IMG/VR virus record: IMGVR_UViG_3300030106_006232
Location: 1 to 27,796 of that record
Strand: one strand, 5' to 3'
DNA length: 27,796 nucleotides
From: a virus
Shown: piece by piece, positions 17,853 through 27,639 of the stretch
How positions within the stretch are numbered: position 1 is the first letter of the stretch
Layout: each line of letters opens with the position of its first letter
Position numbers and translations under genes: made by a program
Notes under the pieces: generated by a model
Database searches by the model: none
What the model saw: the letters and a program-made list of their open reading frames with translations, nothing else
What the model was told of the DNA's origin: nothing

Positions 17853-18102
17853 CAATCGCCTCCTCTGCTGAGTGCACGACGACGGCCGTTCCTCCGGCCC
17901 ACGCCTCAAAGAACTCGCTCTGCAGCGGTGTGAGCTTTCCCTTGGCGCTCTTCACCTCGAGCAGGTACGTGCGCCCCTGGTATCCGACCAGGAGGTCGAC
18001 AGGCCGGTCGATCTGGATCACCCGCGCGCCGATCCCGCGCAGCGCATCTACGATCTCTCGCTCGTTCGTATCGCGGTGTTTCGCGTAGCGGTTCAGGCTC
18101 AA
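17833..18102 (-). CDS. PD-(D/E)XK (VRR-NUC/resolvase-like) nuclease, 89 aa
   Basis: The minimal nuclease pattern is complete: an N-terminal NEREIVDALRGIG helix, RPVDLLVGYQGRTYLLEVKS with Asp and E-V-K, then GKLTPLQSEFFEAW and a final strand with AVVVHSAEEAI. This is the compact fold of VRR-NUC or Holliday-junction-resolvase-like phage enzymes (about 90-130 aa). TTG at 18102 starts, overlapping the replication-type gene. It could resolve branched DNA before packaging, since terL lies further down the same operon. Confidence 0.75.
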   Translation of the reverse strand: MSLNRYAKHRDTNEREIVDALRGIGARVIQIDRPVDLLVGYQGRTYLLEVKSAKGKLTPLQSEFFEAWAGGTAVVVHSAEEAIDAVRIE

Positions 18103-18926
18103 TCGCTCGCCCCCAAAGCGAGGGAGAGCTCGATTACCTTCCCGATCTCCTCGGCCTCTTCCGCTTCCTCGCGCCAGCGCTCCTCGTCGGCCTGCGCGCT
18201 TCGGCGCGCTTCGGCCATCACGTCATCGGCATCGCGGTAGCGGCTCGCCGCTCCCCCAGGCGACGGCAGCTTCCCCTGCTCGGCCTGCCGCATCGCGATC
18301 GTCTTAAACGCGCGAACCCAGCTCGACATCGGGTTCCGCTCGTTCGAGTTCTTCCAGTCGGCGAAGGCGGCCTTGATGTGAGCGACTTGGTTCTTTGCGA
18401 GAGGCTTGCCCTGGTTCCAGGCATGCGGCTGGCGCGCCCACTCAGTCAGCTCGGAAGCGACGCTCTGGGGCAGGTTGAACGGGTCGGGCTTGGCCACCCC
18501 TCTCCCCTCTTCCTGAAGGTCTTCCCCCTCACGCACAGCCGGCCCTGTACGTACGTTATTAGGAATAGGAATAGGGGTAGGTACAGGAGGCGACGCGAAT
18601 CCTTGGTTTTCCGACCACTTAGGCACCGATAGCAGCGCGCTAGCTCCGTCATAAGAGACTGTTAAGAGCCCGTTATCAGCGAGCTGGCGCAGAACTAGCC
18701 GCGCGTAATCAGCGCGCCCCTTCGACGTGACTGCCATCAGCCCGTACTTGTTGAGGGTCAGCGTGCCGTCCTGGCTCTTCGTTCGATTGAGCATCGCCAG
18801 GATCTGGATGTACGCGCGGAAGCCCTCGGCGCTGGTGGCCGCCAGCTTCGGATCGTCAAGAATGTCTTCCATGACCCGGAAGTACCTGCGGTGCTCGCTG
18901 GGCCGGTCGTAGCCATCACTCCGCAT
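18099..18926 (-). CDS. putative replication protein with N-terminal winged helix, 275 aa
   Basis: ATG at 18926 has GGGAG 8 nt upstream. Residues about 10-105 look like a winged helix of phage replication proteins: FRAYIQILAMLNRTKSQDGT and LVLRQLADNGLLTVSYDG. A Pro-rich linker follows. The C-terminal part, LAKNQVAHIKAAFADWKNSN and WVRAFKTIAMRQAEQG, resembles DnaD-like or helicase-loader tails. The last 60 residues are acidic coiled coil. It lies next to another winged-helix protein at the head of the leftward operon. A role as origin-binding or helicase-loading protein is inferred. Confidence 0.6.
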   Translation of the reverse strand: MRSDGYDRPSEHRRYFRVMEDILDDPKLAATSAEGFRAYIQILAMLNRTKSQDGTLTLNKYGLMAVTSKGRADYARLVLRQLADNGLLTVSYDGASALLSVPKWSENQGFASPPVPTPIPIPNNVRTGPAVREGEDLQEEGRGVAKPDPFNLPQSVASELTEWARQPHAWNQGKPLAKNQVAHIKAAFADWKNSNERNPMSSWVRAFKTIAMRQAEQGKLPSPGGAASRYRDADDVMAEARRSAQADEERWREEAEEAEEIGKVIELSLALGASD

Positions 18927-19218
18927 CGGTGAGCTCCCACCGCACCGAGGCGCGGCCGGACGGGGTCTTCGCGCGCTCCCCCGAATCCACGATCACCCCA
19001 GCTCGACGCAGATCCACCAGTCTGCGGCTGATCTGGTGCGCCGTGAGATCGCACCGGCCGGCCATCTCGTGGGCGGCCAGGGCGTGCCCCGCGTCCTCCA
19101 GCGTCTGCACGATTTCGGCGGAATGCTTGAATGAGCCGAAAATCATGCTCTCCGCGGCTGCTGCGGAGGTTTCGGGGTCGGAGGCTCGTGCGTGCCTGCG
19201 TGCAAAGTCGTGATTCAT
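18916..19218 (-). CDS. winged-helix DNA-binding protein, first gene of leftward operon, 100 aa
   Basis: After a DPETSAAAAE motif common in small phage DNA-binding proteins, the sequence HEMAGRCDLTAHQISRRLVD and LRRAGVIVDSGERAKTPSGR forms a winged helix with a wing ending in VRWEL. ATG at 19218 follows AAAGG. It overlaps the replication-type gene by 11 bp. As first gene of the operon beside the operator region it may regulate the operon or assist replication initiation. Confidence 0.7.
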   Translation of the reverse strand: MNHDFARRHARASDPETSAAAAESMIFGSFKHSAEIVQTLEDAGHALAAHEMAGRCDLTAHQISRRLVDLRRAGVIVDSGERAKTPSGRASVRWELTDAE

Positions 19219-19337
19219 CGCGTGGATCCTTTCGCTTTAAACGAAAGAATGGCCTAGCGACAGGTTTTTGCAACTGGGGCACAACTTTCTGCGCCACACC
19301 TGTTCCGAAACTTTGCCGTTGCACCTAGTGTCAGGGG
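19219..19337. promoter_or_regulatory. divergent control region of leftward operon and 197-aa regulator
   Basis: The region holds a perfect palindrome CTTTCG-7 nt-CGAAAG at 19229-19247, right at the leftward ribosome site, an inverted repeat ACAGGT (19260-19265)/ACCTGT (19298-19303), and CAACT repeated 11 bp apart (19271, 19282). These are operator candidates for the HTH proteins encoded nearby. A rightward TAGTGT (19326-19331) could be a -10 placing transcription start at the GTG of the regulator; no strong -35 was found. Confidence 0.55.
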
Positions 19338-19931
19338 GTGCCCAAGGTTACCGGATATCACGAAGAGGACGCCGTATTGCGCCGCCAGGAGATGGGGCGC
19401 CGCATCGAATTCGCTCGGAATAAGATGCAACTCGGCAAGCGTGACTTCGCAAAACTGATCGGCGTTTCGCCCAGCAGCTACACCGCGTGGATTAGCGGGA
19501 AGAGCTCGCCGACGTTGCACTCGCTCGCGAAGCTGTGCGAGATCACCGACATCCCCACGTCCTTCTTCAATCCTGAGAAGCTGAGCGACGTGCGCGACGT
19601 CGACCGATTCGCGCACGACCTGGTCGCGAGGCTCGGTGTCGAGCGCGTCAAGGAAATGCTCGACGCGTCTGAAGAGGAGCTCGCCGCGAGCACGTCGCCC
19701 GGAGCGGCCAGCGCTCAGATTATCCTCGACGCGCTCTGCGATCGCTTTACCGACGAGCAGGTGCAGCAGATCATGCTCTCGCTGCTGATGGCGCACGAAA
19801 CTGGAATGCTCGAGGCGATTCTCGAATCGAACCGCAGCGTGCTGTACACCGTTGCGCTGGCGCGGGAGATCGACGTCGAGCGACTCGACGCGGATGCGCG
19901 TGGCTTTATCGAGGCCGCGCTAAAGCGCTAG
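19338..19931 (+). CDS. XRE-family repressor-like regulator, 197 aa
   Basis: Residues 19-75 form a lambda-repressor-type HTH: MGRRIEFARNKMQLGKRDFA, then LIGVSPSSYTAWISGKSSPT. The remaining 120 residues are helical with no LexA-like protease Ser/Lys motif, so induction by RecA-stimulated self-cleavage is unlikely. The GTG at 19338 has no spaced ribosome site (GGGG abuts it), suggesting a leaderless mRNA; a TTG at 19377 with GAGG 9-10 nt upstream is an alternative start. It is divergent from the leftward virion operon and convergent with another HTH gene (4-bp overlap). Candidate lysogeny repressor. Confidence 0.75.
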   Translation: MPKVTGYHEEDAVLRRQEMGRRIEFARNKMQLGKRDFAKLIGVSPSSYTAWISGKSSPTLHSLAKLCEITDIPTSFFNPEKLSDVRDVDRFAHDLVARLGVERVKEMLDASEEELAASTSPGAASAQIILDALCDRFTDEQVQQIMLSLLMAHETGMLEAILESNRSVLYTVALAREIDVERLDADARGFIEAALKR

Positions 19932-20476
19932 CGCTTCGGGCCGGCGCCGTTTCCAGTTTGACGCTGGAAGCCCTTCACGCGCTCGAGGCCGGCCTTCACC
20001 TTGGACGTGTCGTAGCCGAACTGCTCAGCGATCCGCATCGTGAGCTTCATGCCCTGCATCATCCCTTCTGCGGCGGCAGGAACTTCCATCACCATGTTCG
20101 CCATCATAATGCTGTGAAGCAGGTCCGCCTCCGAGAAGGCGTGCGCCAGGCGCTTAACCAGCAGGTCTTTGAACGGCGTGACGTCGCTCGCCCCACTCGC
20201 GTAGCTAGGCGAGTAAGAGAACACGTCGCTCGGAGTCATCCCCACATTCGCGCATAGCGCGCTCAGCAGTGAGAGCGTCCCCTCTTCCTCGCCGTCGAGC
20301 CATCGCTGCAGCCAGGCTTCCTCGACGCGCAGCGACAGTGCAACATCATGCACAGTCCGATTGTTGTTCTCGATGTGGAAGTTTACGGCTTCCCGCAAAA
20401 CCTCGTCGTAGTCGATCCCGATTTGTTCGCTGCGGTAGTCCCGGCCTTCAAGGTCGTTCTCCCCAAGTTTGAACAT
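19928..20476 (-). CDS. second HTH regulator, 182 aa
   Basis: ATG at 20476 has GGAGG 8 nt upstream; an upstream in-frame start is less likely. Residues about 23-88 look like a divergent XRE HTH: YDEVLREAVNFHIENNNRTV, then DVALSLRVEEAWLQRWLDGE. The C-terminal half is helical and Met-rich (LLHSIMMANMVMEVPAAAEG). The overall plan (N-terminal HTH, about 100-residue helical tail) resembles the 197-aa regulator it faces. It is divergent from the early operon at 20643, so it may be a Cro-like or early-operon repressor. Confidence 0.7.
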   Translation of the reverse strand: MFKLGENDLEGRDYRSEQIGIDYDEVLREAVNFHIENNNRTVHDVALSLRVEEAWLQRWLDGEEEGTLSLLSALCANVGMTPSDVFSYSPSYASGASDVTPFKDLLVKRLAHAFSEADLLHSIMMANMVMEVPAAAEGMMQGMKLTMRIAEQFGYDTSKVKAGLERVKGFQRQTGNGAGPKR

Positions 20477-20642
20477 CGGCACACCTCCGTGATAAACATT
20501 CGCGCACATCCAGGCCGACCTCAAGGCCAAAAATATTTCGCTATTTCGTGCGATTTTCGCTTCCAATTTCGCTTAATGTGCTTTATGTTTAAAACGTAAC
20601 GCAAACAGTCGAGCAATCGACACCAAGCGAAAGGGCGAAACG
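20477..20642. promoter_or_regulatory. operator-rich divergent control region of early operon
   Basis: Four direct TTTCG(C/T) motifs start at 20536, 20544, 20555 and 20567, and two inverted copies (GCGAAA) lie at 20627-20632 and 20635-20640. AAGCGAAAGG at 20625-20634 is identical to the reverse complement of 19228-19237 in the other control region. A/T-rich sequence (20570-20600) with TTTATG and GTTTAAAA offers weak -10 candidates. The clustered sites suggest cooperative repressor binding. Confidence 0.55.
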
Positions 20643-20864
20643 ATGCGATCCACTTTCACCGTCCACATCGACCAAGAGAATGCACGAGTCGAAGGGGACA
20701 TCCTCCTCGACCACAACGTCGCGACGATCCGAATCTGCAAAAACTCGCAGGAACTGATCGTTTTCGGCGGCGTCACCGAGCTCGAGCTCCTCGGTCGCAA
20801 GTGCATCGAGATCGCCGACGAGCTCCGCGCCGCGACGGCCGCGAAGGACGAGGTGGCGGCATGA
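20643..20864 (+). CDS. early hypothetical protein, 73 aa
   Basis: First gene of the rightward operon; ATG at 20643 has AAAGGG about 8 nt upstream. N-terminal beta strands (STFTVHIDQENARVEGDILL, VATIRICKN, ELIVFGG) are followed by one helix (LLGRKCIEIADELRA). The compact beta-then-helix layout is that of a small soluble binding protein. No family recognised. Its stop overlaps the next ATG. Confidence 0.65.
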   Translation: MRSTFTVHIDQENARVEGDILLDHNVATIRICKNSQELIVFGGVTELELLGRKCIEIADELRAATAAKDEVAA

Positions 20865-21130
20865 CCACTGCGGACCTCAACCGATGCGCAGACATCGCGC
20901 GTTTGACCGAGCGCGAGCGCCAGCAGCTTTTCGCTGACCAAAACCTCTGGTGGGTTGACGACAAAACCACCGCGTACCAGCTCACCGCCGCCTTCCTTGA
21001 GCACCGCCTCGAGATGGCCTGGGAAGCCTTTAATGGGTCTGAGAAGCGTATCGCTCCGCACGTGGCGCAGTGTCGCGAGGCCCTCGGGCGACTCGCGGAC
21101 GCCGTCGCGGCGGGTGAGGTGGCGGCATGA
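20861..21130 (+). CDS. early hypothetical protein, 89 aa
   Basis: ATG at 20861 (ATGA overlap, GAGGTG 5 nt upstream) starts MTTADLNRCADIARLTERER. The protein is all-helical with two Trp pairs (NLWWVDD, MAWEAFN) and an Ala-rich end, EVAA, shared with the preceding product. No recognised domain. It is part of the chain of early mini-genes that precede RecE. Confidence 0.6.
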   Translation: MTTADLNRCADIARLTERERQQLFADQNLWWVDDKTTAYQLTAAFLEHRLEMAWEAFNGSEKRIAPHVAQCREALGRLADAVAAGEVAA

Positions 21131-21261
21131 GCGATCAGATCTACCGATGCGGTGACTGCGACAGGAAAGTCATCGGGTTTGCCCCTAGCGGGCCGTGCCC
21201 GCAGACAGGCAAAAACCACCGACCGAAGCCTGAACCTAAAACGACCGGAGGTGAGGCATGA
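21127..21261 (+). CDS. 44-aa Cys-containing early protein
   Basis: ATG at 21127 overlaps the previous stop and has GAGGTG upstream; the stop overlaps the next ATG at 21258. The product begins MSDQIYRCGDCDRKVIGFAP and has a second CP..TGKNH element, suggesting a small zinc knuckle (CxxC plus Cys/His). The C-terminus is Lys/Pro-rich. Very short, but overlaps and ribosome sites on both sides support translation. Confidence 0.55.
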   Translation: MSDQIYRCGDCDRKVIGFAPSGPCPQTGKNHRPKPEPKTTGGEA

Positions 21262-21452
21262 GCCTTCCCAAGCGTCTTCCGATCGAGACAAGGGAGCGCC
21301 GCGAGGTTGCAAGGCTCGGCAAGCGCATCACGGAACTCGCTGAGCTGGACCGCCCTCTCGACAAAGACCAAGTGATGGAACTGATCGACGCAGTCGACCA
21401 GGTCGCATGGCTGGCTGGAGAGCGCCGCGACTGGACCGGAGATGAAGCATGA
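21258..21452 (+). CDS. early hypothetical protein, 64 aa
   Basis: ATG at 21258 overlaps the previous stop, with GGAGGTGA upstream. A basic N-terminal helix (PKRLPIETRERREVARLGKR) is followed by an acidic one (DKDQVMELIDAVDQVAWLAG). No family recognised; a short helical hairpin protein. ATGA coupling continues into the next gene. Confidence 0.55.
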   Translation: MSLPKRLPIETRERREVARLGKRITELAELDRPLDKDQVMELIDAVDQVAWLAGERRDWTGDEA

Positions 21453-21673
21453 ATATGAGCAAGACGCTACGCGCGACGCTCGACGCCGCATCCAGTCTCG
21501 AACACGAGCTGCGGTCACTGACCGCAAGGCGGCGCAAGCATTTCTACGCGCTGTCCGAGCGATGGCAGGGATCCAAGCGGGGCGACGATCACATGGAGCT
21601 GACGTGCTCCATCGAAGACCTTGCGAGAGCGATCGAGCTGGGGATCGAAAACATCGAGGAAGCGCACGAATGA
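21449..21673 (+). CDS. early hypothetical protein, 74 aa
   Basis: ATG at 21449 (MNMSKTLRATLDAASSLEHE) overlaps the previous stop; a second ATG two codons on is also possible. The protein is helical, with a basic middle (SLTARRRKHFYALSERW) and an acidic end (DLARAIELGIENIEEAHE). No known domain. Stop overlaps the next start. Confidence 0.55.
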   Translation: MNMSKTLRATLDAASSLEHELRSLTARRRKHFYALSERWQGSKRGDDHMELTCSIEDLARAIELGIENIEEAHE

Positions 21674-21888
21674 GCATCCAGCTTCTCATCCTCCTCGACT
21701 CCGTCGGCTGCGTGCTCGACCTCGAGACGCTGATGACGCACCCGCTCGACGACCAGGGCCACCCGGTCCTCGACGCCGACGTCAGCGTGCACCTCGACGA
21801 CACCTGCGACTCGTGGCGCTCCTCGCTGAACCAGGTCGACCGCTGGATCTGCCTGGCCGCGCAGGTTGAAGTGGAGCGTCAGTCATGA
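21670..21888 (+). CDS. early acidic hypothetical protein, 72 aa
   Basis: ATG at 21670 overlaps the previous stop. The product starts MSIQLLILLDSVGCVLDLET, a strongly hydrophobic strand-like segment, then is rich in Asp (DDQGHPVLDADVSVHLDDTC). It ends in a helix with WICLAAQVEVERQS. A marked negative charge could suit DNA mimicry, but this is only a composition argument. No family recognised. Confidence 0.55.
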   Translation: MSIQLLILLDSVGCVLDLETLMTHPLDDQGHPVLDADVSVHLDDTCDSWRSSLNQVDRWICLAAQVEVERQS

Positions 21889-22076
21889 AGGTCAACCTCG
21901 GAACCATCGAAGTCGACGACGTTCAGCGCAGGGCAATCCGACACCGCTACGGCAAGACCGGCCTCGCGACGCGCGAAGAGGTTCGCCACGAATACATCAG
22001 CCTAGTCCAAGGGGACATGCAAGAAATCGTTTCCGATCTGCTGTCGGACCGACCGTATTGGTGGGATCGGCAGTGA
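21885..22076 (+). CDS. early hypothetical protein, 63 aa
   Basis: ATG at 21885 overlaps the previous stop. MKVNLGTIEVDDVQRRAIRH is followed by YGKTGLATREEVRHEYISLV and a C-terminal acidic helix ending SDRPYWWDRQ. No recognised motif; probably a small alpha/beta or helical protein. The stop overlaps a GTG that opens the next short ORF. Confidence 0.55.
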   Translation: MKVNLGTIEVDDVQRRAIRHRYGKTGLATREEVRHEYISLVQGDMQEIVSDLLSDRPYWWDRQ

Positions 22077-22177
22077 TCTGCCGCGCTCTTCACGTCTTTC
22101 TACGCGCGCAGGGTGCGCGCCTTCGCTGCCCGCGGTGCGGGCATCTACTTCAACGCGTTTACCGGACGTCCCGGTAA
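22073..22177 (+). CDS. 34-aa basic Cys protein, possible
   Basis: A GTG at 22073 overlaps the previous stop (GTGA), consistent with the coupled chain. The product is basic and contains RCPRCGH, a zinc-ribbon half-site. Short length and lack of a clear ribosome site make this uncertain, but it fills the gap up to the hairpin before RecE. Confidence 0.35.
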   Translation: MICRALHVFLRAQGARLRCPRCGHLLQRVYRTSR

Positions 22178-22187
22178 GCACTAGGGG

Positions 22188-22225
22188 GTGCGGGGGAGGG
22201 TTTTAACGGGACGCCTCCCCCGCAC
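22188..22225 (+). promoter_or_regulatory. 12-bp perfect hairpin just before recE start
   Basis: GTGCGGGGGAGG (22188-22199) pairs perfectly with CCTCCCCCGCAC (22214-22225), with a 14-nt loop, and ends one base before the first ATG of the exonuclease gene. No T-run follows, so it is more likely a translational or mRNA-stability element than a terminator. Confidence 0.6.
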
Positions 22226-22237
22226 ATGGAGATTCAA

Positions 22238-23086
22238 ATGTTCAAACCAGGCATTCACACCGGCGTCGAAATGGACGCCTACCGCGCCGATCCCGGCGTC
22301 GCGTCGAGCGACCTCTCGGCACTCAAGCGTTCACCCGCCTACGCGCGGCTGCGACGCGAAACGATCAGCGAGTCGACTCCGGCTATGCGCTTCGGGACTG
22401 CAGTGCACACTGCGGTGCTCGAGCCTGGTCTTTTCTTCCACCAGTACGCTGAAGACCCGCAGCACCCGGAGCACGGCGGGTATCCGAAGGGCTGGCGCAA
22501 CACCAAGGCGTATAAGGCCCTGGCCCAGGAGGTGCGTGAGTCCGGCCGCGAGCCGCTCTCTGCGGAGCACATGCACGCGTGCGAAAGCATTCGCCGCAAC
22601 GTGCTGGCGCACTCCACGGGCTCAGTTATCGCTGAAGTGCAGGACGGCGCGGAGGTCAGCGTCTTCGCCCACGACCAGGAGCTCGACGTGCGCAGGAAGA
22701 TCCGGCCGGACTTGCTCGTATCGCGCGCTTCGATGGTCGTCGACCTGAAGACCACCAACGATCCCGGCGCGTTCCGCCGCACGGTCCAGAAGTTCGGATA
22801 CCACCGCAGCGCAGCCTACTACCTGGACACGCTCGGCCTGCTCGGCGAGACGTACGACCACTACGTCTTCCTGGTCGTCGCGACCGACGCGCCTTACGAG
22901 GTGTTTGCGTTCACGCTCGACGACGACTCGATCGAGCAGGGGCGCCACGAGTACCGCCAACTGCTCCGCGAATACGCGGCCTGCATGGCTAGCGGCGACT
23001 GGCCGCTCCCGAACACCGGCATCGAGGAGGTCCGTCTCCCCGAGTACGCCATCAACTACATGGTATCCGAGGAGATCGCAGCATGA
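22238..23086 (+). CDS. RecE-like PD-(D/E)XK exonuclease, 282 aa
   Basis: ATG at 22238 is preferred over 22226, because GGAG lies 6 nt before it. The N-terminus GIHTGVEMDAYRADPGVASS and SALKRSPAY is typical of DUF3799/RecE-like phage exonucleases. The catalytic core is visible as PDLLV..SMVVDLKTTNDP (Asp and D-L-K) with a following FGYHRSAAYYLD helix. These enzymes digest 5' strands to leave 3' ssDNA for the annealing protein encoded next (ATGA overlap). Complete and normal in length. Confidence 0.88.
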   Translation: MFKPGIHTGVEMDAYRADPGVASSDLSALKRSPAYARLRRETISESTPAMRFGTAVHTAVLEPGLFFHQYAEDPQHPEHGGYPKGWRNTKAYKALAQEVRESGREPLSAEHMHACESIRRNVLAHSTGSVIAEVQDGAEVSVFAHDQELDVRRKIRPDLLVSRASMVVDLKTTNDPGAFRRTVQKFGYHRSAAYYLDTLGLLGETYDHYVFLVVATDAPYEVFAFTLDDDSIEQGRHEYRQLLREYAACMASGDWPLPNTGIEEVRLPEYAINYMVSEEIAA

Positions 23087-23787
23087 GTGACACACTGCCC
23101 ACAGTCGCAAACGAGAAGCAGATCGAGCTGCCCAACCAAGAGGAACGCGCGTTTGAGTTGGCGCAGCGCAGGGCCAAAGTGCTCGCCTCAAGCGAAATCG
23201 TCCCGAAGCAATTCCAGGGAAACGTCGCCAACTGCATGGTCGCGGAGAATTTCGCACTCCGCAGTCCGTTCGATGTGATGATGGTCATGCAGAACATGCA
23301 GGTGATTCATGGGCAGCCCTCGTTCAGCGCAAAGTTCCTGATTGGCTGCATCAACGCGAGCGGTCGATTCAGCCCACTCCAGTACAGAGTCGAAGGCGAC
23401 GGCATGAAGCGAACCTGCGTTGCCTGGGCAAAGTCGACCGAAACCGGCGACGTCGTCGAAGGACCGGCGGTTTCGATCCAGATGGCGCACGACGAAGGCT
23501 GGGCGACGAAGGCTGGATCCAAGTGGAAGACGATGCCCGACGTGATGCTCCGCTACCGAGCTGCGAGCTTTTTCGCGAGGACAATCTGCCCGGAGATCAT
23601 GCTCGGCATGTATACGCACGACGAGGTGTCCGAGATGTACGCGGCGCAGCCACCACGCTCTGCTGTCTCCGCACAGGAGGCACTCGAGCAGGCGCGGGAC
23701 GTGACCCCTGAGCCGGAGCCCGAGCCGGAGCCCGACCTGGTCGACGCCGCGTTCGAGCTCGAGGGCGAAGGCCCCGCCGAGCTCTAG
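23083..23787 (+). CDS. RecT-like ssDNA-annealing protein, 234 aa
   Basis: The RecT-family pattern is present throughout: FELAQRRAKVLASSEIVPKQ, VMMVMQNMQVIHGQPSFSAK, AHDEGWATKAGSKWKTMPDV and MLRYRAASFFARTICPEIM. The C-terminus is acidic with a Pro-Glu repeat (PEPEPEPEPD) and could interact with SSB or the exonuclease. It overlaps the exonuclease gene by 4 bp, making a two-gene recombination module. It anneals complementary ssDNA during phage recombination and replication. Confidence 0.9.
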   Translation: MSDTLPTVANEKQIELPNQEERAFELAQRRAKVLASSEIVPKQFQGNVANCMVAENFALRSPFDVMMVMQNMQVIHGQPSFSAKFLIGCINASGRFSPLQYRVEGDGMKRTCVAWAKSTETGDVVEGPAVSIQMAHDEGWATKAGSKWKTMPDVMLRYRAASFFARTICPEIMLGMYTHDEVSEMYAAQPPRSAVSAQEALEQARDVTPEPEPEPEPDLVDAAFELEGEGPAEL

Positions 23788-23792
23788 TTCTC

Positions 23793-23841
23793 AGCCCCGC
23801 CTCCCCTCCCCCTTTGCCCCAACCTCGTGGGGGGCGGGGCT
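23793..23841 (+). terminator. hairpin after recT
   Basis: AGCCCCGCC (23793-23801) pairs exactly with GGCGGGGCT (23833-23841) across a C/T-rich 31-nt loop, just after the recT-like stop. Only short T-tracts follow, so it may be a partial terminator setting lower excisionase expression. Confidence 0.45.
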
Positions 23842-23877
23842 CCCTTCTCACCTCACACATCACACAAAAGGCACACG

Positions 23878-24096
23878 ATGGACCCCAATGAGATCGACTT
23901 CTTCGTAAGGCTCCCAGAAGCCCTCAGAATCGCCGGAGGCGTGCATCGCAACACGCTCTACAAGTGGGTCGAGGAAGGCAAATTCCCGCCCTTCCACAGG
24001 CTCTCAGAGCGCGTGGTGGCATGGCGCCGCAGCGACCTGGACCGCTGGGTCGAGGAGCACCAGGCGGAGGGCGAAGAGGAGCTGAAGGCTGGCTGA
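23878..24096 (+). CDS. excisionase-like AlpA/MerR-type HTH protein, 72 aa
   Basis: ATG at 23878 has AAAAGG about 7 nt upstream. The protein has the AlpA/excisionase layout: RLPEALRIAGGVHRNTLYKW, EEGKFPPFHRLSERVVAWRR, and a helix SDLDRWVEEHQA. The EGKFPPF/VVAWRRSDLDRWV pattern is the hallmark. Such proteins bend att DNA and direct the integrase toward excision, or act as regulators. It lies immediately before the att-like region and integrase. Confidence 0.8.
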   Translation: MDPNEIDFFVRLPEALRIAGGVHRNTLYKWVEEGKFPPFHRLSERVVAWRRSDLDRWVEEHQAEGEEELKAG

Positions 24097-24100
24097 TTGT

Positions 24101-24216
24101 CTCAGTGACCCCCTGCTCCGAGCGTGCGCTTGCGAGGGGGGTTACTGAGAACTGATCCCTCGAGGCTCAGTGACCCCCCCCAGAAACAGCCGTTTTTTTG
24201 GGGGGGGTTACTGTGC
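24101..24216. repeat. two related hairpins with C-run/G-run arms
   Basis: CTCAGTGACCCCCT (24101-24114) pairs with AGGGGGGTTACTGAG (24135-24149), and CTCAGTGACCCCCCC (24166-24180) pairs with the G-run GTTACTGTG arm (24201-24215). The half-site GT(G/A)ACCCCC thus occurs four times in alternating orientation with a 65-bp period. Likely integrase arm or excisionase sites, or paired mRNA stems ending the early operon. Confidence 0.6.
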
Positions 24217-24336
24217 CTGGTCAGGGGTTTGAATCCCCGAGTCCCAGGTGAGTCTTTTTTTCCTTTTCGATTTTGTAACCCGCTGAAATCATTGACGATG
24301 CACGCCGGTTAAAAATCCCTCCCCCGCTACCACCTG

Positions 24337-24387
24337 AACGGCCACCTAGGTTTTTAGAGTTTGAAAGAACTCTCCTAGGTGGCCGTT
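24337..24387. repeat. long 20-bp stem-loop, attP element or bidirectional terminator
   Basis: AACGGCCACCTAGG (24337-24350) pairs perfectly with CCTAGGTGGCCGTT (24374-24387). Inside, after a TTTTT bulge, AGAGTT (24356-24361) pairs with AACTCT (24368-24373) around TGAAAG. The right arm runs into TTTTC. Stability and position suit a terminator isolating integrase from the early operon, or a recombination structure. Confidence 0.65.
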
Positions 24388-24477
24388 TTCATTTGGGTTT
24401 TCGGATTCCTGAGACTGCATGGGTTTGAATGAGTTTGTGCCGATTTGAACACAGAAACGGCGTTTTTTTCGTCAACC

Positions 24478-24527
24478 GAGTCCCCTGGTGAGTCCCCTGA
24501 AGGTCGATTAGGGTCCAGGGGACTCAC
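24478..24527. repeat. GAGTCCCCTG repeat cluster before integrase
   Basis: GAGTCCCCTG occurs directly at 24478-24487 and 24490-24499, and inverted at 24516-24525; GAGTCCCAGG at 24239-24248 is a degenerate upstream copy. The inverted pair can form a stem of 11-14 bp just ahead of the integrase ribosome site. Candidate integrase binding sites and a route for autoregulation. Confidence 0.55.
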
Positions 24528-24546
24528 TCGAAGGGGGGCGAAAACC

Positions 24547-25728
24547 GTGTTGACTGTGAAAGAACTGAGAGAGGCATACGCACAGGACAAGGAGTACACG
24601 ATCCGCGATAGCCTGGGCCTTTTCATCCTCGTGCGTCCCAATGGGACGAAGCGATGGAAGATGCGCTTTCGCCGCAAAGGCAGCCAGCACAGGCTAGACC
24701 TGGGCGCTTTCCCTGAAGTCGGTTTGGCGCAAGCGCGAAAGCTGAGAGACGAAGCGCGCTCCAAGATCTTGCAGGGGATCGACCCCCGGCCGCGCGAAGT
24801 CGCGCATGTCTACGTGCCCACGTTCGGCGAGATCGCAGACGAGTGGTTCAAGCAGCGCCAGCTGCACGAGTGGTCGCCTGGCCACTACGACAAGCGGCGA
24901 GCTCAGTACGAGCTGCACACGCGCCCTGCCCTGGGCGAGCGCCCCGTCGACCAGATCACCAGCGGCGAGCTCTTCGATTTCCTCGCAGCCATTGCCGTCG
25001 CTGGCGGAAAGGCCGAGGCCGCCAAGCGGCTCCGGGGCGACATCGAGAACATCCTCGCCCTGGCCAAGGTCAGGAACCTGATCGAGCACAACCCCGCCAC
25101 CGGAATCGGCTCCCAGCTTCCGACGCCCAAACCTGAGCACTTCCCCGCGATCATCGAGCCCAAGGCGTTCGGTGCCTTCCTGCGAGCTCTGCGGAACATG
25201 CCGAAGCGCAGCTACCCGCAGACAAGAATCGCCGCCCTCATCGCGCCCCATCTGGCGCTGCGGCCAAACGAGCTGTGTAAGGGGCGTTGGGACGAAGTCG
25301 ATTTCGACGCGGCCACCTGGGTGATCCCCAGCTCCAGGATGAAGGAGGGGCGCGACCTGGTCGTCCCGCTCTCGCGCCAGGTGCTTGAGCTGCTGGAAGA
25401 GCTGTACCCGTATTCGGGCCGCGACGAGTGGATCTTCCCCGGAGCCCGCGACCACAAGAAGCACATGTCTCTGATGACCATCGAACAGGTCTTCAACCGC
25501 CTGGGCTACGCGGGCGTGCAGTGCCCGCACGGCCTGCGAGCTTCGTTCAGAACGATGGCGGCCGAGCAGCTCGAGGAGGACGAGCGGTTCCTCGAGATGC
25601 AGGTCGGTCACGTGGTCAAGGACTCGAACGGTACAGCCTACAACCGCACCGCGTTTTTGAAGCAGCGGGTCGGCGTGATGCAGCGGTGGAGCGATTACCT
25701 CGATTTACTCGCCGCGAATAACGCCTAA
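24547..25728 (+). CDS. int: P4-type tyrosine integrase, 393 aa
   Basis: A GTG at 24547 gives MLTVKELREAYAQDK, the normal beginning of the DUF4102 arm-binding domain, with GGGGGG 9 nt upstream; a longer frame from a TTG at 24445 would run through the repeat cluster. The N-terminal domain (GLFILVRPNGTKRWKMRFRR, then LGAFPEVGLAQAR) is followed by a SAM-like core-binding domain (about 90-185) and the catalytic domain. The catalytic residues are all present: Arg239, Lys266, His328, Arg331, His355 and Tyr365. P4-type integrases often target tRNA genes. It is the last strongly recognisable rightward gene. Confidence 0.93.
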   Translation: MLTVKELREAYAQDKEYTIRDSLGLFILVRPNGTKRWKMRFRRKGSQHRLDLGAFPEVGLAQARKLRDEARSKILQGIDPRPREVAHVYVPTFGEIADEWFKQRQLHEWSPGHYDKRRAQYELHTRPALGERPVDQITSGELFDFLAAIAVAGGKAEAAKRLRGDIENILALAKVRNLIEHNPATGIGSQLPTPKPEHFPAIIEPKAFGAFLRALRNMPKRSYPQTRIAALIAPHLALRPNELCKGRWDEVDFDAATWVIPSSRMKEGRDLVVPLSRQVLELLEELYPYSGRDEWIFPGARDHKKHMSLMTIEQVFNRLGYAGVQCPHGLRASFRTMAAEQLEEDERFLEMQVGHVVKDSNGTAYNRTAFLKQRVGVMQRWSDYLDLLAANNA

Positions 25729-26214: not shown

Positions 26215-26582
26215 CAGTCCCACCTGTACGTCCGGCTATCCAGAGAACCGTGATGCTCGTAGGCATCCATCATCCGCCCGTACACTCTCCAAAACTTGTC
26301 GCCGTGCCGCAGGCCCAGGCCCTCGTTCCAAAGCGCGACATGGGCGGCTTCGTGGATAGTCGTCTCAAGGGCCTGGCTGTACGTACGGCACCCCGCCTGG
26401 CTGATCTGAATCGTCAGCTTGCCGCGCACCTCGAGCGTTTGCCCAAACGTCTGCTCGCCCTTCCCCTCCTCCCAGTCGATCGTCTCCATCCACTCGAATC
26501 GGCAGGCGGGAAGGTCGAACTCCTCCTTCAGCCAGCGCATGACCTGGATGCAGCGGTCGCGGCGATTGCGCGCTTTAGGCAA
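26214..26582 (-). CDS. HExxH metallopeptidase (SprT-like), 122 aa
   Basis: The zinc site is explicit: TTIHEAAHVALWNEGLG carries HEAAH (two His and Glu), and HGDKFW about 15 residues on could supply the third ligand. The N-terminal half has a beta sheet typical of SprT/WLM-like minigluzincins (CRFEWMETIDWEE, QTLEVRGKLTIQIS). The TTG start at 26582 overlaps the phosphoesterase stop and has GGGAG upstream. Likely targets include DNA-protein crosslinks or phage assembly proteins. The start codon is less certain than the family. Confidence 0.75.
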   Translation of the reverse strand: MPKARNRRDRCIQVMRWLKEEFDLPACRFEWMETIDWEEGKGEQTFGQTLEVRGKLTIQISQAGCRTYSQALETTIHEAAHVALWNEGLGLRHGDKFWRVYGRMMDAYEHHGSLDSRTYRWD

Positions 26583-27639
26583 AGATTGTCTCCCTCGACT
26601 CGATCGTGTTCGTCTCGTGGTCGACGTAGATCAGGCTCTGGCTCGGCGGTTCCGGGGCGAACCCGCTGTCGTAGCTGTAGCCGTTGGGTCCGCAGGTGCA
26701 GCCATTCTCGGAGAACGCCATCGAGCTTGTGCGCATGAACGAGTCTGTATGGCGATGGCCCTGGACCCAGAGCTGAAATCGCAGGTGCTGCTGCATCTCA
26801 GCTAGCCAACGCCAGGGGGGCGTGCGAAGGCCGCAGGCCGTGGTCTTTACATTCGCCTTCTTCGCGTGCCCGTGGTGGAACGCGGTGCGAAACTCGCCGA
26901 CCTGGCTCACAGCGTAATAGCTGGGCTCGATGTGCCACTCCCAATCCCCGAAGTCCCGCGCCAGGCGGTGGGCGATTGCGACGTCGTAGCTGCGCCTGGC
27001 CGCCAGGCCTGCCTGCATCTGCGGCGTGTCGCGATCGTGGTTCGAGACTGAGACGACAACGCGCACCGGGAGGTCGAGCTTCGCCTGCAGGTGCTGGTGC
27101 TCCTGGTGGCGCATTTTGTAGGTGAGCTCCATCTCCTCGAGCGGAGTCTCTTCAACGAATGCGGAGAGCAGGCCGTCGTGCATGTCCCCGTTGACCAGGT
27201 CGTCGCCGCCCTGCCAGTAAGTCAGGTGCACGAGCTCGGCGTCGCGCGCCTTGCGCTTCAGGCTCGCGATCATCTGATCGTGGCAGGCGCGGATTCGCTC
27301 GTGCCCCACCGTCGGATCGTGCTTGTTAATCGGGAGGTCGATCAGCTCGCGCCAGTGCGTGTCTGAGCTGCAGAAGATCGCGCTCAGGCGTCGCTTGCCC
27401 TTCCGCCTGGGGATTCGGGCCGCCTTGGGCTCCGCCGCCTCGTGGGCGATCTCAAGCGCTTCGACCGCAGACCGCAGCGTCGCGATCTCCTCATCCTGCT
27501 GTTTCAGGAAGGCGCGCAGGCGTCGGATCTCGAGACGCTCGCGCTGATTCAGATGCGCGCGGACGCCGCTGATCCCGTTGCCGGCCAGGACGGCCTCGGC
27601 CTCGTCGAGGATCGCTTCGACATCGTCGTCAGTCGGCAT
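26575..27639 (-). CDS. calcineurin-like metallophosphoesterase with coiled-coil N-terminus, 354 aa
   Basis: Residues about 1-85 are a charged coiled coil (RERLEIRRLRAFLKQQDEEI). The phosphoesterase core then shows its metal ligands in order: FCSSDTHWRE (D-x-H), YWQGGDDLVNGDMHDG (GGDD in place of GD), VVSVSNHDRDT (NHD), FHHGH and VQGHRHTDSF (GHxH). All sites appear intact. Substrate unknown; related phage enzymes are thought to act on nucleic acids or nucleotides. ATG at 27639 has GAGG upstream and overlaps the preceding gene by 11 bp. Confidence 0.82.
   Translation of the reverse strand: MPTDDDVEAILDEAEAVLAGNGISGVRAHLNQRERLEIRRLRAFLKQQDEEIATLRSAVEALEIAHEAAEPKAARIPRRKGKRRLSAIFCSSDTHWRELIDLPINKHDPTVGHERIRACHDQMIASLKRKARDAELVHLTYWQGGDDLVNGDMHDGLLSAFVEETPLEEMELTYKMRHQEHQHLQAKLDLPVRVVVSVSNHDRDTPQMQAGLAARRSYDVAIAHRLARDFGDWEWHIEPSYYAVSQVGEFRTAFHHGHAKKANVKTTACGLRTPPWRWLAEMQQHLRFQLWVQGHRHTDSFMRTSSMAFSENGCTCGPNGYSYDSGFAPEPPSQSLIYVDHETNTIESRETIFA

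Follow-up and report, generated by a model that had tools for sequence, protein, structure and literature searches.

Two genes of a virus record face each other across a 4-bp overlap, and the question is whether they are the two equal halves of an unusual genetic switch. The record is a linear sequence of 27,796 bp (27.8 kb), analyzed here in full and called the window; it is probably a fragment of a larger genome. The phage would be temperate and podovirus-like, and we infer that this locus is its immunity region. A preliminary description had presented the two genes, here A and B, as regulators that both bind operators and that interfere with each other through convergent transcription. The reading to which we lean, with somewhat more confidence than doubt, is that A would be a CI-like repressor of both early operons, acting via candidate operator dyads, and that B would be an ancient paralogue of A that probably modulates it.

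Layout of the locus

The features of the locus are collected in Table 1. A and B are convergent and overlap at their 3' ends, as had been described, and the shared CTAG supplies a TAG stop codon on each strand. The observation that each gene is divergent from a different early operon also holds. A is divergent from the leftward early operon, which starts with the minus-strand gene 18916-19218, and B is divergent from the rightward recombination/integration operon, which starts with the plus-strand gene 20643-20864. Among the six reading frames, those of A and B are each the best by codon usage, with a GC3 of about 0.8.

The leftward block starts at 19218 with the phrog_1123 gene and comprises the replication-type gene, an endonuclease/Holliday-junction-resolvase-like gene, and the genes for terminase, portal (PF12236), and tail. 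On the other side, the block that runs rightward from 20643 includes small genes along with those for exonuclease VIII, RecT, and a tyrosine integrase. This is the lambda gene order on the minus strand: recombination side, immunity region, replication side, and morphogenesis. Therefore, A occupies the place of cI, with its back to the gene that opens the replication-side operon. As in a lambda-type immunity region, this repressor-position gene, which starts at 19338 on the plus strand, is divergent from an early operon that starts at 19218 on the minus strand. The gene 18916-19218 takes the Cro position. It is thus misleading to set this locus apart from the usual back-to-back layout. B is an extra gene between the 3' end of A and the recombination-side promoter, where lambda has rex. 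The product of 18099-18926 had no match in Pfam. Distant relatives of the phrog_1123 protein occur in mycobacteriophages, e.g., LeBron, and in Manatee Spring phages.

Table 1. Features of the A-B locus and its surroundings (positions in the window)
Feature	Position	Strand	Basis or remark
Replication-type gene, leftward operon gene 2	18099-18926	-	Position; 39% identity over ~100 aa to the gene at this place in relatives
Winged-helix phage protein, leftward operon gene 1	18916-19218	-	phrog_1123, 2.5e-14
Left control region, between A and leftward early operon	19219-19337		Sequence
Candidate operator dyad ATCCTTTCGCTTTAAACGAAAGAAT	19226-19250 (core 19230-19246)		2 mismatches in 12 pairs; shuffle p 0.005
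Gene A, XRE/HTH_3 regulator	19338-19931	+	197 aa from GTG; Pfam, PHROGs, codon usage
Perfect 14-bp palindrome AAGCGCTAGCGCTT, centered on the overlap	19923-19936		No T-run
Tail-to-tail overlap CTAG, TAG stops of A and B	19928-19931		Sequence
Gene B, acidic diverged HTH-type protein	19928-20476	-	182 aa from ATG
Right control region, between B and rightward early operon	20477-20642		AT-rich, GC 47%
Four TTTCG sites, three of them TTTCGCT	20536-20574 (20536, 20544, 20555, 20567)	+	Word counts
Candidate operator dyad TGCTTTATGTTTAAAACGTAACGCA	20579-20603 (core 20583-20599)		2 mismatches in 12 pairs; shuffle p 0.008
Inverted copies AAGCGAAA and GCGAAA, upstream of rightward operon	20625-20640	-	May partly be ribosome-binding leader
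Small protein, rightward operon gene 1	20643-20864	+	No PHROGs or Pfam match
Exonuclease VIII and RecT, rightward operon	22226-23787	+	phrog_412, 7e-74; phrog_561, 5e-69
Tyrosine integrase, rightward operon	24445-25728	+	Profile match

Gene A is probably a CI-type repressor

The product of A matched Pfam HTH_3 at 3e-10, with 40.4 bits against a curated cut-off of 23, which places it in the XRE family. It also matched PHROGs repressor families. The tail of about 120 aa is helical and matches no known family. Neither A nor B had a Peptidase_S24 match up to E = 1; this agrees with the earlier remark that both lack a self-cleavage motif, and neither protein is a cleavable lambda-type CI by this measure. 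The single-sequence AlphaFold model of A was poor (pLDDT 49.7), and its HTH still matched the HTH of P22 c2 and of SinR.

A had no full-length relative in the collections searched, where the plasmid matches were generic XRE domains. Four loci retrieved with the HTH of A were considered as kin and rejected, because what they had in common was limited to 26 residues and a small HTH of a generic kind. The position of A is as in BcepC6B, BUCT708, lambda, and P22. Because A has no full-length homologue, its role as a repressor rests on its domain and position, and on these grounds it is a probable CI-type lysogeny repressor without a cleavage domain.

A may start downstream of 19338. The GTG at that position has no well-spaced Shine-Dalgarno sequence. 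An in-frame TTG at 19377, with an AGAGGA Shine-Dalgarno sequence at 7 nt, is a better candidate. Therefore, A may be 184 aa long and the left control region may extend over 19219-19376.

Gene B is probably a diverged relative of A

B has a strong Shine-Dalgarno sequence, GGAGG, upstream of its ATG. The HTH matches of its product were weak (HTH_26, 0.052; phrog_18342, 0.036; phrog_4836, 0.069; ClgR in the PDB, E = 1) and were below every curated cut-off (HTH_26, 14.2 bits against 22), and they do not place B directly in the XRE family. All of these weak HTH and regulator matches fall on residues 33 to 117, the part that is also covered by the BLASTP pair of A and B (4e-5). No relative of B was found in the collections of viral contigs, genome contigs, phages, or plasmids.

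The similarity of A and B gave Smith-Waterman z scores of 7.1 to 7.3 against shuffles. The match spans the HTH and the following helix (DVDRFAHDLVARL / DVTPFKDLLVKRL). The stretch just after the HTH reached a register-limited p of 0.009, and the similarity of the tails over their full length was not significant (p 0.08 to 0.12). Among the controls, which left out D3 cI, the z score was 6 to 9 for A paired with the BcepC6B, BUCT708, Magia, phi297, and P22 repressors and 3.4 for A paired with lambda CI. For B, none of the repressor or Cro controls gave a z score above about 2. Because B aligns with A and not with the controls, B appears to be a diverged duplicate of A, or else the two derive from a single, unsampled lineage. 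Ancient paralogy of A and B is probable, with homology that holds for the HTH and the following helix only.

B is thus tied to the Cro/CI regulators solely through its similarity to A. That both proteins are of the HTH type stands, for A above the HTH_3 cut-off and for B weakly, below the cut-offs and by way of A. Paralogy, for which a comparison of predicted structures had been proposed, is supported by sequence over the HTH and the following helix. The predicted structures were poor, and with a pLDDT of 44.2 for the single-sequence AlphaFold model of B, the structure matches of B are meaningless.

The HTH domain of B has a net charge of -7 and its tail one of +3; the corresponding values for A are +4 and -11. 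The other HTH domains in the comparison panel, which is small, range from -3 to +6. Compared by eye with the family consensus, B has Val in place of the helix-2 Gln and Arg in place of the turn Gly, and its recognition helix starts with Glu-Glu. Classical DNA binding by B is therefore doubtful, although B may still bind DNA despite its charge. The earlier idea that both proteins bind operators finds no support in the acidic HTH of B, which appears to lack the usual helix-2 and turn residues. Because its HTH is acidic and degenerate, B more likely contacts A, or regulates its own promoter, than serves as an equal second DNA-binding switch protein.

B could instead be an accessory gene expressed in the lysogen (rex- or moron-like, e.g., for exclusion or defense), and its HTH resemblance would then be vestigial. 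The slot that B occupies holds rexAB in lambda, a DUF1654 gene in phi297, and small uncharacterized genes in Magia, and an acidic protein without relatives would suit such a role. However, the nearest detectable relative of B is the neighboring regulator A, and B had no PADLOC match. We regard an accessory role as possible but unlikely.

B may also be a charge-inverted, DNA-binding-deficient duplicate of A. In this scenario, the acidic HTH and basic tail of B would pair with the basic HTH and acidic tail of A, B would be an antagonist that titrates A off the shared dyads, and convergence would couple the expression of the two genes. We consider this form of antagonism improbable.

The two control regions share candidate operators

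Near-palindromes of 25 bp of the quality of the two dyads occur three times in the whole window, and each control region holds one of them. Both dyads have an identical spaced half-site, TTWYG-N7-CRWAA, around TTTAAA, which gives a 17-bp core. This pattern was written after seeing both sites, and it had no other match in the window within 2 mismatches. The 17-bp core resembles the operators of many XRE repressors.

The regions also share a repeat. Five of the nine copies of TTTCGCT in the window lie within the two control regions, which make up 285 of its 27,796 bp. In dinucleotide shuffles, the best word common to both regions reached such a count in 0.1% of cases (p 0.001). The equivalent regions of close relatives do not have these repeats, and a consensus scan found no sigma-70-like promoter. 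Since dyads and repeats are shared by both control regions, a common regulator is likely. The simplest reading is that one regulator acts at both early promoters via the candidate operators. Common operators at both early promoters are a mark of lambda-type immunity, and the candidate sites seen here are significant against shuffles.

The arms of the dyads are imperfect, however, and instead of operators the dyads and TTTCGCT could be elements that both early operons have in common, belonging either to the promoter or to a start-associated leader. AAGCGAAAGG lies a short way upstream of the first start codon in each operon and takes in a purine-rich ribosome-binding stretch, and the TTTAAA core of both dyads could be a -10 element. 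Such elements would leave unexplained the dyad symmetry and the three further TTTCGCT copies on the right side, and the matching regions of relatives are without such repeats. We therefore think a leader-element origin unlikely, and we keep the dyads as candidate operators of A.

The junction and convergent transcription

A CTAG tail overlap is in itself ordinary. The palindrome centered on it is one of two palindromes of at least 14 bp in the whole window. It holds AAGCG/CGCTT units that are also present in the control-region repeats. A hairpin terminator at this palindrome was considered and rejected, because a T-run is absent and folding of the RNA gave no significant gain over shuffles. 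An Rfam search matched no family. We found no terminator-like site between A and B, which would permit overlapping transcripts. The starts of A and B are about 1.1 kb apart, and the gene tails alone meet.

In the switch as first proposed, A and B would both be DNA-binding repressors that repress each other, each on its own divergent operon, with collision or antisense RNA in addition. The shared stop-codon overlap with no terminator-like site in between and the shared sites in both control regions fit such a switch. Moreover, the pR-pL switch of coliphage 186 is an established case of transcriptional interference between convergent promoters (PMC6593788, PMC7708051). However, the 186 promoters stand face to face at close range, and here they would be separated by the distance between the two starts. 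With an acidic HTH in B that lacks the usual DNA-contact features and with unremarkable RNA folds at the junction, we judge this switch quite improbable. The interference principle is known from 186, so even if it were shown here, it would not be a new one. The convergent orientation follows from the divergence of each gene from its neighboring operon. This layout is a variant of the lambda-type switch, and it probably has the facing transcription as a by-product and not as the mechanism.

Close relatives lack the A-B pair

Related viral contigs have a terminase (TerL) that is 83% identical and a portal that is 81% identical. Where they reach that far, they keep exonuclease VIII, RecT, and the replication-side genes. 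They have no A, B, or phrog_1123 gene; at the place of A and B, they carry a small Cro-like gene (73 aa) and a control region of about 150 to 160 bp. They had no Phage_integrase match, and in contig L007 the interval from recT to the next shared gene is free of an integrase. Across the few records compared, A, B, and the integrase are jointly present or jointly absent, as expected for lysogeny functions, and the A-B pair looks like part of a lysogeny cassette. The absences are not proof, because the relatives are fragments and perhaps incomplete. Compared with window positions 19219-25728, contigs L003 to L007 may represent a sister lineage without lysogeny, or incomplete records. An exonuclease/phosphoesterase-like gene at 26575-27639 is 89% identical to its L007 counterpart, and the neighboring recT is 56 to 60% identical.

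A model of the locus

For the repressor reading that we favor, we infer the role of A as repressor, that of the dyads as operators, and the action of B. A, with its basic XRE HTH and helical tail, would bind both dyads (19226-19250 and 20579-20603), possibly along with the TTTCGCT repeats. It would thereby silence both early operons, the one for replication on the left and the one for recombination/integration on the right, with a logic like that of OR and OL of lambda. B would be transcribed toward A from the right control region and would contact A as an anti-repressor or co-repressor. Alternatively, B may be a diverged protein that regulates its own promoter.

If B is a repurposed repressor copy that opposes A, the locus would show a phage making an anti-repressor from its own repressor gene, with the anti-repressor placed tail to tail with its parent gene. 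At the least, the locus offers two candidate operators that lend themselves to testing, and a lysogeny cassette that closely related phage fragments do not have.

Comparison with known systems

As in lambda and P22, the repressor-position gene is divergent from the replication-side operon, the recombination operon lies on the other side, and there are operators, here candidates, at both early promoters. Lambda and P22 have three operators per control region, whereas each region here has one dyad; in P22, c2 is directly beside OL. The locus also differs in that no S24-type cleavage domain was found in A and in that a winged-helix phrog_1123 protein is in the Cro position. In the slot of B, lambda has rexAB in the same direction as cI, whereas B runs opposite to A.

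In lactococcal phage TP901-1, the CI and MOR proteins provide a case in which one immunity-region protein modifies another by protein contact. AimX likewise acts on a phage repressor. The genes for CI and MOR are divergent, whereas A and B are convergent, and contact between A and B is a proposal here. PMC8516035 reportedly describes a switch related to that of TP901-1.

The layout had been called atypical. However, phi297 of Pseudomonas and Magia of Burkholderia, which were picked up as RecT matches, have genes in the same convergent slot. In phi297, genes divergent from the RecT/exonuclease operon, namely a DUF1654 gene and a second gene from an annotated divergent promoter, run tail to tail toward the repressor operon, from which a single base separates them (15490 and 15492). 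These genes encode a DUF1654 protein and an uncharacterized protein and not HTH relatives of CI, and the phi297 CI has an S24 peptidase domain and stands beside a ParA-like gene. Magia likewise has genes that diverge from its RecT operon and run into the repressor gene from the opposite side; gp60 overlaps the annotated immunity repressor gene by 74 bp (40023-40096; L061:10024-10097), more than the CTAG overlap. The convergent gp60 lacks an HTH and resembles neither A nor B. Our literature searches on convergent repressor arrangements and on lysogeny modules returned nothing, probably owing to their wording. Since phi297 and Magia have convergent genes in this slot, the facing orientation is not new. 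The unusual point here is the kinship of the convergent gene with the repressor.
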